Shown here: positions 19,484 through 22,660 of the stretch, one piece after another
How the letters are laid out: the number at the start of each line of letters is the position of its first letter
Position numbering within the stretch: position 1 is the first letter of the stretch
Assembly (NCBI RefSeq): GCF_037078405.1
Contig: NZ_JAYMGZ010000001.1
Span: 992,001 to 1,056,000 of the forward strand
Direction: 5' to 3'
Length of the DNA: 64,000 bases
DNA from: Haloarcula sp. DT43
GTDB lineage: Archaea > Halobacteriota > Halobacteria > Halobacteriales > Haloarculaceae
Position numbers and translations under genes: made by a program
Notes under the pieces: generated by a model
What the model saw: the letters and a program-made list of their open reading frames with translations, nothing else
The model's database searches: none
Told to the model about the DNA's origin: nothing

Positions 19484-19660
19484 TCAGGTCGTGAACCCGT
19501 CCTCGGCGTCGCGCTCGTCGAGGACCCACTCCAGTTCCTCGATGGCGCGCAGGATGGCGACCTCGGCCTCGTCCTCCAGTTCTGTCGACGGCGGGTCGTG
19601 CTTGTCGTACTCGTTTTGCAGCGCCTCGATGCGGTCCCGAATGGCCTCCTCCGTTTGCAT
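19484..19660 (-). CDS. Small acidic helical protein (58 aa)
   Basis: A 58-residue protein, mostly helical and rich in Glu/Asp, with the central phrase AILRAIEELEWVLDERD. The reading frame extends much further upstream, but that part is arginine-rich antisense of valS and not coding. The ATG at 19660 is the first that yields haloarchaeal-type composition. The function is not recognised. It lies 92 bp beyond the valS stop on the same strand. Confidence 0.6.
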   Translation of the reverse strand: MQTEEAIRDRIEALQNEYDKHDPPSTELEDEAEVAILRAIEELEWVLDERDAEDGFTT

Positions 19661-19752: not shown

Positions 19753-22425
19753 TTACCGGACGACGACGACGGCGCTGTCGGTCTCGGTCATCTCGCCCTC
19801 GCCGGAGTAGGTCCGGGACTCCTCGACGGCGAACATCTCGTCGGTGAGCGTGACGCCGGCGACGTGGAGTTCGTCGCCGTCTATCTCGTAGTCGCCGTCC
19901 TCGATGGCGGCGTCGATAGCGCCGACCTCGCTCCCGAACTCGGGGCCGACCAGCGAGTAGTCGAGGTCGATGCCGCTGACCGCGGTCGTGATGTCCGGTG
20001 CCTCGTCGTAGGTGTCCAGTCGGTCGACGTGCATCGCCTCGGCGACGGCGTCCTCGAAGCCGGCGACGTGGCCGAACACCTCGACGTGGTCGAGGTCGGC
20101 GTTCAGCGGCAGACCGTGCTCGGTCTTGTACCGCCGGAGCGCGGAGACGACCTCCATCGCCGTCTCGCCCGCGTCGAGGTCGGCGTCGTAGCCGCCCGCG
20201 GTCGGCCAGTCGGTCGTGTGAATCGAGCCGTCCTCGTCGTAGACGCGGTCCCACAGTTCCTCCGTGATGTGGGGCAGGAACGGCGCGAACAGTTGCAGGA
20301 AGGTCCGGTGGGCCTGCAGCAGGGTGAACTCCGTCGACGTATCTTCCCCGTCCGAAAGCCGCTGCTTGGCGATTTCGAGGTAGTCGTCACAGAACGTGTT
20401 CCAGAAAAAGGAGCGGAGCTCGTTGCGGGCCTTCGAGAACTCGTAGGCCTCGAACTTCGCCGTGACCGACTCGACGGTCGCGTCCAGTTCGGCCAGCAGC
20501 CACTCGTCGACCGCGGCGAGGTCGTCCGGTTCGGCGGGTCGCTCCGCCGGAGTGAGCTGGTCGACCAGCCGCGAGGCGTTCCAGAGCTTCTGGAGCAGGC
20601 GCTCGCCGGCCTCCAGGTCGCCCTCCTTGTACGGGAAGTCGTCGCCGATGGAGGTCCCGGCGGCCCAGTAGCGGGTGGCGTCGACCGGGAACTGCTCTAG
20701 CACCTCGCTGGGCGGGATGACGTTGCCCTTGGACTTGGACATCGCCTCCCGGTTCTCGTCTAGCACCATCCCGTTTATCATCACGTTCTCGAAGGGGACC
20801 TCGCCGGTGTGTTCGTAGCACTTGACGACGGTGTGGAACAGCCAGAACGAGATGATGTCGTGGCCCTGCGGGCGCAGGTCGAAGGGGTACAGCTCGGGGT
20901 TCTCCCAGGTGAAATCCCCGGCGTCGTCGTCCCAGTCCCAGCCGGCGTTGACGAGCGGCGTCAGCGACGACGTGGCCCACGTGTCGAAGACGTCCTCCTC
21001 GGGCGTCAGCGAGCCGTGGCCACACTCGGGACAGCTATCGACCGGCGGGTCGTCCGACAGCGGGTCGACCGGGAGCTGGTCGCGCTCGGCCATCACGGGC
21101 TCGCCGCAGTCGTCGCAGTACCACACCGGAATCGGGATGCCCGAGTCGCGCTGGCGGGAGATACACCAGTCCCACTCCAGCCCCTCTATCCAGTGCTCGT
21201 AGCGGGTGGCCATCTTCTCGGGGAACCACTCCATCTGGCGGCCGGCCTCGATGTACTCTTCCTTCTTGTCGAGCAGTTCGATGTACCACTGCTCGGTGAC
21301 GAGGTACTCGACCTCCTCCTCGCAGCGCTCGTGGACCTGAACGGTGTGGTCGTGGTCGCGGCTCTCCAGCAGCGACCCCTCCTCGCGCAGGTCCTCGATG
21401 ATGGCCTCGCGGGCCTCGGTGGTGTGCAGCCCGGCGTAGTCGCCGGCGAGGTCGGTCATCGTCGCGGACTCGTCGATGGCGAGCCGCAGCGGCAGGTCGT
21501 GGGCCTGGTACCACTCGATGTCGTTCTGGTCGCCGAACGTACAGCACATCACGATGCCGCTGCCGGTCTCCATGTCGACGCGCTCGTCGGCGATGACGGG
21601 GACCTCCTGCTCGAAGATTGGCACCCGCGCCGTCCCGCCGACGAGGTGCTGATTGTCGTCGTCCTCGGGATGGACGAAGACGGCGACACAGGCCGGCAAC
21701 AGTTCGGGACGGGTCGTCGAGATGGTGAACGTCGCGTCCTCCTCGGCAGGTCCATCGCCAGTCTCGACGAGGTCGAACGCGATGTCGTTGAACAGCGTCG
21801 ACTTGTCCTTGTCCTCCTGTTCGACCTGCGAAATCGCGGTTTCGCAGTCGGGACACCAGATGGTCGGCGCACGCTGGCGGTACTCCCGGCCCTGCTCGTA
21901 GAGGTCGAGGAAGGACAACTGGGAGACGCGCTGGACGTCCGGCGCGATGGTCTTGTAGGTGTTGTCCCAGTCGACTGAGATGGCGAGCGACTGCACGTCC
22001 TGGGTGAACTCGTCCTCGTACTGCGTGCAGACGTCGCGGCACTTCTCCTGGAACTCCCGCCGGGAGAAGTCCTGGTGGCGGATGTCGAGTTCGCGCTCGG
22101 TCAGCCGCTCCGAGGCGATGCCGTTGTCGTCGTAGCCGAAGGGGAAGTAGACGGTGTCGTCGGCCATCCGGTGGTAGCGGGCGACGAAGTCCTGGAGCGT
22201 GAACTGGTAGAGATGGCCCATGTGGAGGTTCCCCGACACCGTCGGCGGCGGCGTGTCGATGGTGAAGCGGGTGTCGGCGTCCTCGTCGTAGGCGTAGGTC
22301 TCGTCGGCGACCCAGCGGTCCTGCCACTCCGGCTCTACCTCGCGGGGGTCGTACTCCCCGTCGAGGGCGTCGGCTGACTGGTCTGCGGTCGATTCCTCCT
22401 GCGGTGGGTCCTGTGTATCACTCAT
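19753..22425 (-). CDS. valS: Valyl-tRNA synthetase
   Basis: Charges tRNA-Val with valine; class I synthetase of 890 aa. The HIGH signature reads HMGH (in GNLHMGHLYQF, about residue 67) and the KMSKS loop reads AMSKSKGNVI. The editing (CP1) domain lies between, and two zinc-type clusters are visible (WCPDCETA; YCDDCGEP with DSCPECGHG). The anticodon-binding domain occupies the last 250 residues. The start ATG 22425 is about 150 nt behind a separate promoter; the leader holds a small ORF and a hairpin (see 22477-22575). Confidence 0.96.
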   Translation of the reverse strand: MSDTQDPPQEESTADQSADALDGEYDPREVEPEWQDRWVADETYAYDEDADTRFTIDTPPPTVSGNLHMGHLYQFTLQDFVARYHRMADDTVYFPFGYDDNGIASERLTERELDIRHQDFSRREFQEKCRDVCTQYEDEFTQDVQSLAISVDWDNTYKTIAPDVQRVSQLSFLDLYEQGREYRQRAPTIWCPDCETAISQVEQEDKDKSTLFNDIAFDLVETGDGPAEEDATFTISTTRPELLPACVAVFVHPEDDDNQHLVGGTARVPIFEQEVPVIADERVDMETGSGIVMCCTFGDQNDIEWYQAHDLPLRLAIDESATMTDLAGDYAGLHTTEAREAIIEDLREEGSLLESRDHDHTVQVHERCEEEVEYLVTEQWYIELLDKKEEYIEAGRQMEWFPEKMATRYEHWIEGLEWDWCISRQRDSGIPIPVWYCDDCGEPVMAERDQLPVDPLSDDPPVDSCPECGHGSLTPEEDVFDTWATSSLTPLVNAGWDWDDDAGDFTWENPELYPFDLRPQGHDIISFWLFHTVVKCYEHTGEVPFENVMINGMVLDENREAMSKSKGNVIPPSEVLEQFPVDATRYWAAGTSIGDDFPYKEGDLEAGERLLQKLWNASRLVDQLTPAERPAEPDDLAAVDEWLLAELDATVESVTAKFEAYEFSKARNELRSFFWNTFCDDYLEIAKQRLSDGEDTSTEFTLLQAHRTFLQLFAPFLPHITEELWDRVYDEDGSIHTTDWPTAGGYDADLDAGETAMEVVSALRRYKTEHGLPLNADLDHVEVFGHVAGFEDAVAEAMHVDRLDTYDEAPDITTAVSGIDLDYSLVGPEFGSEVGAIDAAIEDGDYEIDGDELHVAGVTLTDEMFAVEESRTYSGEGEMTETDSAVVVVR

Positions 22426-22476
22426 GTTCGAACGGTGGGCGGATAGCCCGGATAGCGGTGGACTGCGGCGCGGTTG

Positions 22477-22575
22477 TCAGCGGTGCGTGCGTCGAGTGGT
22501 GGGGGTGGTGTGGGGCGTGGGGACCCCTACACCGACCGGGGCGAGAACCAGCGTCTGGGAGAGTCGACGCACCAT
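22477..22575 (-). CDS. Candidate leader peptide before valS (32 codons)
   Basis: A short ORF in the valS leader. It opens with ATG at 22575, 27-32 nt after a TATA-like box (22602-22607), so it would be translated leaderless from the 5' end. It closes with TGA at 22477-22479, 52 nt before the valS ATG. It encodes five valines, three in a VGVGV cluster (codons GTC, GTA, GTC) preceded by GTG and GTT. A hairpin (22508-22532) is built from the same nucleotides. Valine content alone is only modestly above average for a haloarchaeon. Promoter, start and hairpin together make a sensing leader plausible, not proven. Confidence 0.4.
   Translation of the reverse strand: MVRRLSQTLVLAPVGVGVPTPHTTPTTRRTHR
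22508..22532 (-). promoter_or_regulatory. Hairpin in the valS leader, overlapping the Val codons
   Basis: Read on the minus strand, GTGT, one bulged A, and GGGG (22532-22524) can pair with CCCC and ACAC (22515-22508) around an 8-nt loop. The 5' arm is made of codons for Val-Gly-Val of the leader ORF. A ribosome stalled there would melt the hairpin. An alternative GGGG/CCCC pairing within 22519-22527 is also possible. Confidence 0.4.
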
Positions 22576-22601
22576 CTGGTCAGTACTCGGCCGACGGCGG
22601 G

Positions 22602-22607
22602 ATTAAC
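22602..22607 (-). promoter_or_regulatory. TATA-like box for the valS leader transcript
   Basis: The minus strand reads GTTAATCC, the only AT-rich hexamer between the upstream gene's stop (22661) and valS. It lies 27-32 nt before the leader ORF's ATG (22575) and about 180 nt before valS. Confidence 0.45.
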
Positions 22608-22660
22608 GACTTCGGTTTCCGGTGGCTTCTCGGCAGGGCCACGATGACCACCAACTCAGG

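Follow-up and report, generated by a model that had tools for sequence, protein, structure and literature searches.

Leader peptides that sense codons belong to the textbook mechanisms of bacteria, and the T-box riboswitch, which regulates bacterial synthetase genes, is an RNA that reads uncharged tRNA without translation. Bacterial attenuation by leader peptides has been described for trpL and ilvL, and for ilvBNC of Corynebacterium (PMC10272879, PMC11857589). For archaea, a study of Haloferax volcanii listed 16 ORFs in mapped 5'-UTRs, defined by length and isoelectric point, of which two precede trpS and pheS (PMC4983044, Table 2); valS and ilvB are not among them, and the section on these short ORFs proposes no amino-acid-sensing role. 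The open-access literature yielded bacterial attenuators and general archaeal uORF counts, with no amino-acid-specific archaeal leader peptide; subscription papers were not covered. In Haloferax, transcription appears to be coupled to translation (PMC8576121), and in the same genus T stretches ending at C act as terminators, while a hairpin alone does so in part (PMC7237163).

The window analyzed here is a 64,000-nucleotide stretch of Haloarcula sp. DT43 (contig NZ_JAYMGZ010000001.1, positions 992,001 to 1,056,000). Its valS gene, encoding a valyl-tRNA synthetase of 890 aa, lies on the minus strand (19753–22425), as do all window features described below; the assignment was based on Pfam PF00133 and PF08264 and on alignment with ValS of other haloarchaea, and the valyl specificity also rests on what is established for this protein family. 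Upstream of valS we found the promoter CCGAAGTCGTTAAT (22602–22615), composed of a BRE-like CCGAAG and a TATA-like GTTAAT (22602–22607), and, 27–32 nt beyond the latter, an ATG (22575–22573) that opens a leader ORF of 32 codons, MVRRLSQTLVLAPVGVGVPTPHTTPTTRRTHR followed by a stop (22477–22575). The stop codon, TGA at 22479–22477, is separated by 51 nt from the valS start at 22425. Five Val codons occur in the leader in the order GTG (22570–22572), GTT (22546–22548), GTC, GTA and GTC, the last three within the cluster GTC GGT GTA GGG GTC (VGVGV; 22522–22536). The box and its spacing, the 32-codon frame ending shortly before valS and the five Val codons of four kinds had all been claimed in a first-pass annotation, and direct reading of the sequence, together with the ORF listing for the frame, bore them out. 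From this spacing, the start of the leader ORF is predicted to coincide with the transcription start or to lie a few nt off, that is, to be leaderless. No bacterial-type terminator was present between 22380 and 22660, and a sigma-70 promoter was likewise absent in the window. The neighboring minus-strand gene upstream of valS (22661 to about 23578) encodes an HFX_2341-like protein (Pfam PF19810 with DUF7776, PF24989), and a small minus-strand ORF without a Pfam match (MQTEEAIRDRIEALQNEYDKHDPPSTELEDEAEVAILRAIEELEWVLDERDAEDGFTT; about 19484–19660) follows valS.

Comparison of Haloarcula genomes, including Haloarcula salina (L265 = G004; ValS 94% identical to that of the window), which was among the closest relatives in the search, revealed a promoter-positioned short ORF with GUA before valS in 30 of 31 genomes, which meets the attenuator criterion of a short ORF between promoter and regulated gene. 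The 29 aligned valS upstream regions fell into two clades, with leaders of the form M-V-R-R-L......L-V-L-A-P-V-G-V-G-(V/A) in the window's clade and M-(A/V/T)-R-R-(A/G)......V-L-V-P-V-V-G-(V/A)-x-x-P-H-stop in the second. The ATG, its spacing from the TATA box, the frame and the APVGVG/PVVG core were kept, the promoter-to-ATG spacing being unchanged and all length changes being multiples of three; the sole aligned locus without the leader ATG (L037) comes from an incomplete genome. Loss of the frame or the Val codons in relatives had been named beforehand as an outcome that would refute the leader, and this test failed to refute it, as both were kept across Haloarcula. Relatives read GTA(CCC)GTAGTAGGGGTC at the Val-codon cluster, and the Val signal is weaker in the window's clade than in relatives because GTA-GTA is replaced there by GGT-GTA.

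The leader is predicted to form two nested helices, both with compensatory changes. Hairpin P2 (22507–22533), GGTGT-(A bulge)-GGGG paired with CCCC-ACACC, lies over the Val codons; the hairpin at 22508–22532 proposed in the first-pass annotation was real and correctly placed on the Val-codon bases, but slightly too short, and the longer outer helix P1 had been missed. The 5' arm of P1, GTGCGTCGA, covers leader codons 2–4 (22564–22572), and its 3' arm, TCGACGCAC, directly precedes the leader stop codon (22487–22495). The predicted fold holds both P1 and P2 at −38 kcal/mol, but its z relative to dinucleotide-shuffled sequences is just −1.9, which makes the energy by itself weak evidence. Pairs were counted on anchored columns of 32 sequences, a MAFFT alignment having misplaced a gap in the P2 3' arm. 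In the outer part of P2, 139 of 160 cells were paired, compared with a mean of 108.6 when the 3' arms were re-dealt, and none of 2000 re-dealings reached the observed value. This outer helix reads GGTGT/ACACC in one Haloarcula clade and TAGT/ACTA in the other, with two pairs changed on both sides (G-C/U-A and U-A/A-U), which represents mostly one evolutionary event. Three loci (L024, L029, L030) have the CCCC run shifted by one base with the P2 helix still closed. The P1 core was paired in every sequence and varied little; its one clean double change, U-A to C-G, occurred in L013. The compensatory changes that the first-pass annotation had suggested looking for in the leader hairpin are thus found in P2 and also in P1. 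A small hairpin, P3 (GGGC..GCCC; 22437–22450), adjoins the valS start in the window's Haloarcula clade only and exhibited a double change as well, being GGGCG/CGCCC in L011 and GGGTG/CACCC in most others. In other families, the P2 stem changed from GGGGC/GCCCC to GGGCC/GGCCC in four genomes (G-C to C-G); for this set the double change is evidence and the total is not, since re-dealt cells come close to the observed count.

We propose, with a probability of roughly 0.83, that valS is under the control of a leader peptide that acts in cis and responds to valine. Comparison of sequences establishes the placement of the promoter, the frame, the cognate codons, the helices and the parallel ilvB and trpS leaders described below; translation, pausing and the direction of the response are inferred, without expression, profiling or start-site data for this locus. 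RNA polymerase would initiate at the leader ATG or slightly ahead of it, which would put the mini-ORF first in the mRNA, and ribosomes would load as on other leaderless haloarchaeal mRNAs. With charged tRNA-Val plentiful, above all the GUA-reading isoacceptor, the ribosome would pass the Val codons, terminate and leave, and the default fold, P1 enclosing P2, would keep valS expression low. Under a shortage of charged tRNA-Val, the ribosome would pause on Val codons in or directly before the P2 5' arm, keeping P2 open and shifting the downstream folding, and more valS would be made. With the control codons located in or directly before the P2 5' arm, a paused ribosome would hold P2 open and a departed one would let it form; the leader stop codon lies in the P2 loop or just after the P2 3' arm; as read from the predicted fold, this placement of codons and stop is the anatomy of a cognate-codon attenuator. 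Counting against attenuation at valS are the weaker Val signal in the window's clade and the lack of a valS leader in some families (see below); classical attenuation also hinges on alternative folds that exclude each other, and such folds were not shown for valS.

The output could be early transcription termination or access to the valS start, and the present data do not decide between both. A T-rich tract (CGTTTTC, CGTTTC, TTCTC) follows many valS, ilvB and trpS leaders, 20–50 nt past the control codon in relatives, and in this respect resembles the U-tracts of archaeal aCPSF1 (FttA) termination; such termination is not known to be under leader-peptide control, and the tract is a candidate for an archaeal-type terminator only. 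The window's clade lacks it and has the covarying hairpin P3 by the valS start, so control at the level of translation is not excluded. In that case, the leader ribosome would free the valS start or hand ribosomes on (translational attenuation or reinitiation). This is a form of the proposed explanation, which does not fix the level, and we consider it possible without favoring it. It would account for P3 and for a second short ORF that, in several genomes of two other families, runs with its stop codon into the valS start (ATGA); the ilvB leaders have a second ORF of similar kind, together with the motif GGAGG. These overlaps suggest a translational step in some lineages. However, the window has no second ORF overlapping valS, its leader stop being 51 nt off, and the recurrence of T-rich tracts after leaders in all gene families suits termination.

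The leader peptide reading extends to ilvB, which encodes acetolactate synthase (Pfam TPP_enzyme_N). The pattern GTAGGGG-N7-GCCCC in relatives had, besides valS, a second recurrent site, which preceded ilvB in the loci read, and the leader was present at 26 of 30 ilvB loci from the order, in most families and in the window's genome. There, on contig 2 of G000 (L406, L386; about 765740–765824 (765806)), an Ile/Leu/Val leader with a hairpin, MSAAAGRQVRPLASAATAILGVRIVGAV followed by a stop, shares the GTAGGGG..TAGCCCC core with the valS leaders. Most ilvB leaders end in Ile-Ile-Val or Ile-Val (AUU/AUC, then GUA), followed by GGG and a stop inside the hairpin; AUU makes up about 9% of Ile codons in ilvB loci. 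The second short ORF overlapping the ilvB start resembles the second ORF seen at valS in families f6 and f7. Haloferacaceae have the ilvB leader (L421, L430, L432), with peptides that end in IIVGV or IIVGA in the members examined, and lack the valS leader.

A third gene, trpS, is preceded by a Trp-Arg-Trp leader, reading WRW or WRWW, in nearly all genomes with one of two trpS types; the window's genome lacks the leader-bearing type. Leader codons pair with a stretch after the Trp codons and enclose them in a strongly covarying helix, with 295 of 306 cells paired, 17 distinct arm pairs and four pairs changed on both sides. An alternative pairing at the trpS leader is possible, by eye only and uncounted: at L216–L225 and L345–L373 a conserved motif, GCTC(A/C)CT.CGCTTTCTC, lies past the helix and could pair with the helix's 3' arm. 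The start-site map of Haloferax volcanii independently records that a tryptophan-tRNA ligase gene has a long 5'-UTR with a 23-codon ORF (PMC4983044).

Beyond Haloarcula, the start codon, promoter spacing, frame, Val codons and hairpin of the valS leader were kept, in altered form, in most haloarchaeal families. ValS of haloarchaea falls into two deep clades that the tree separates well, the second being about 39% identical to the window's type. For the window's type in other families, 40 of 44 genomes exhibited a leader ending in a GUA codon before the hairpin, and the stop codon UAG lay within the hairpin loop at 37 loci; two genomes of family f3 combined this type with a VVR-type leader. The second type was preceded by M-(4–6 codons)-GUA-GUA-few codons-stop (M..SVVR-stop) in all 34 scored loci, and GTAGTACG was nearly invariant before it. 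GTAGTA was in frame with the first ATG past the TATA box in 35 of 36 loci, at a TATA-to-ATG distance of 29–31 nt in 34 of 36; because 30 of the 36 share one ATG-to-GTA distance, the loci of this frame test amount to fewer independent cases than their number implies. No leader was found at valS in the Halorubrum/Haloferax family (Haloferacaceae; about 15 loci) or in three small-genome families. Two genomes carry both deep ValS types, G175 (L110 and L065) and G164 (L111 and L082); three of these four genes have a clear GUA leader and L065 is a weaker candidate. In families f6 and f7 (L039, L041, L044, L070, L072 and others), the second conserved short ORF between the Val leader and valS reads MYCxRPxFxEQRPV...RRRPRRAVRA, its stop overlapping the valS start.

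These comparisons bear on two further explanations that dispense with a codon sensor. The good conservation of the P1 and P2 structures and the near invariance of GTAGTACG could be expected of a protein-binding element in RNA or DNA, recognized for example by ValS itself or a repressor, with the ORF incidental. We regard this as unlikely, since nearly every genome has its Val codons in the frame of a promoter-positioned ATG, insertions and deletions come in multiples of three and stop codons stand at defined places; moreover, Ile/Val codons at ilvB and Trp codons at trpS replace the Val codons, which a binding site does not explain. Even less plausible is that the conserved ORF, with its start and stop, encodes a functional small protein from the valS transcript, because the peptides vary in length from about 9 to more than 30 residues and those of different families have no N-terminal sequence in common, sharing just the control codons near their end.

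One criterion, a promoter-positioned ORF with GUA, was applied to all sets, including 91 control upstream regions (leuS, ileS, pheS and the second trpS type). Against the frequency in Haloarcula, it was met by 1.1% of shuffled sequences and 2 of the 91 controls, and at least two GUA codons in such an ORF occurred in 17 of 31 Haloarcula loci, 34 of 34 loci of the second ValS type and none of the 91 controls. In the sampled coding sequences, GUA accounts for 7% of the codons for Val and 0.58% of codons overall. Valine is a frequent residue of haloarchaeal proteins, short ORFs are common and folding energy alone is not significant, but chance is already refuted by conservation, given 30/31 and 34/34 against 0–2/91 in controls and about 1–2% of shuffles. 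A general leader before all synthetase genes was also rejected, as ileS, archaeal leuS, pheS (30 relatives tested) and the second trpS type have none. No leader was found at trpE, which is not a fair test because trpE probably lies inside an operon. A pattern search of 197 genomes of the phylum, mostly non-haloarchaeal, returned four matches outside the order, and the three examined resemble chance. Upstream of the bacterial-type leuS in the window's genome (L006), a possible promoter-positioned ORF, MVIEREQPERPFQSYPWMTTQTMLGGPLAVHDHNLTPSRHSS, was observed. Where leaders occur, the control codons fit the downstream gene: Val for valS, Ile/Val for ilvB and Trp for trpS.

Together, the leaders are best explained as a haloarchaea-wide class of cognate-codon leader peptides acting through ribosome-mediated attenuation, in which translation, stalling, the sign of regulation and its level are inferred. 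They share with bacterial attenuators a short ORF rich in cognate codons between promoter and gene, the same gene classes (ilvB, trp genes, synthetases) and conserved RNA helices overlapping the control codons, a criterion met by P1/P2 at valS and by the trpS helix. They differ in the leaderless start at the mRNA 5' end, in a stop that often lies in the hairpin loop after the control codon, in the rare GUA/AUU control codons and in their presence on valS and trpS. Because the window lacks a bacterial-type terminator, the valS leader would work like an attenuator without being a member of the bacterial terminator-based type. T-box riboswitches likewise tie synthetase genes to the charging of the cognate tRNA, but sense uncharged tRNA by RNA only; the T-box comparison drawn in the first-pass annotation does not apply. 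Neither a T-box nor another known RNA family was matched in Rfam by the window locus (L001), the ilvB loci L406 and L421 or the trpS loci, and elsewhere the scan returned one chance miRNA match below its gathering score.

Archaea thus appear to use codon-sensing attenuation, hitherto known from bacteria. Whether haloarchaea invented it separately, with leaderless rare-codon mini-ORFs and a hairpin or helix gating a U-tract (aCPSF1-type) terminator through transcription-translation coupling to control valS, ilvB and trpS across the class, is in our judgment an even question. A haloarchaeal class of cognate-codon leaders spanning three genes would provide a natural readout of transcription-translation coupling in archaea and would explain how synthetases and branched-chain synthesis are adjusted to supply, and existing genetic tools would allow a direct test in Haloferax volcanii or Haloarcula.
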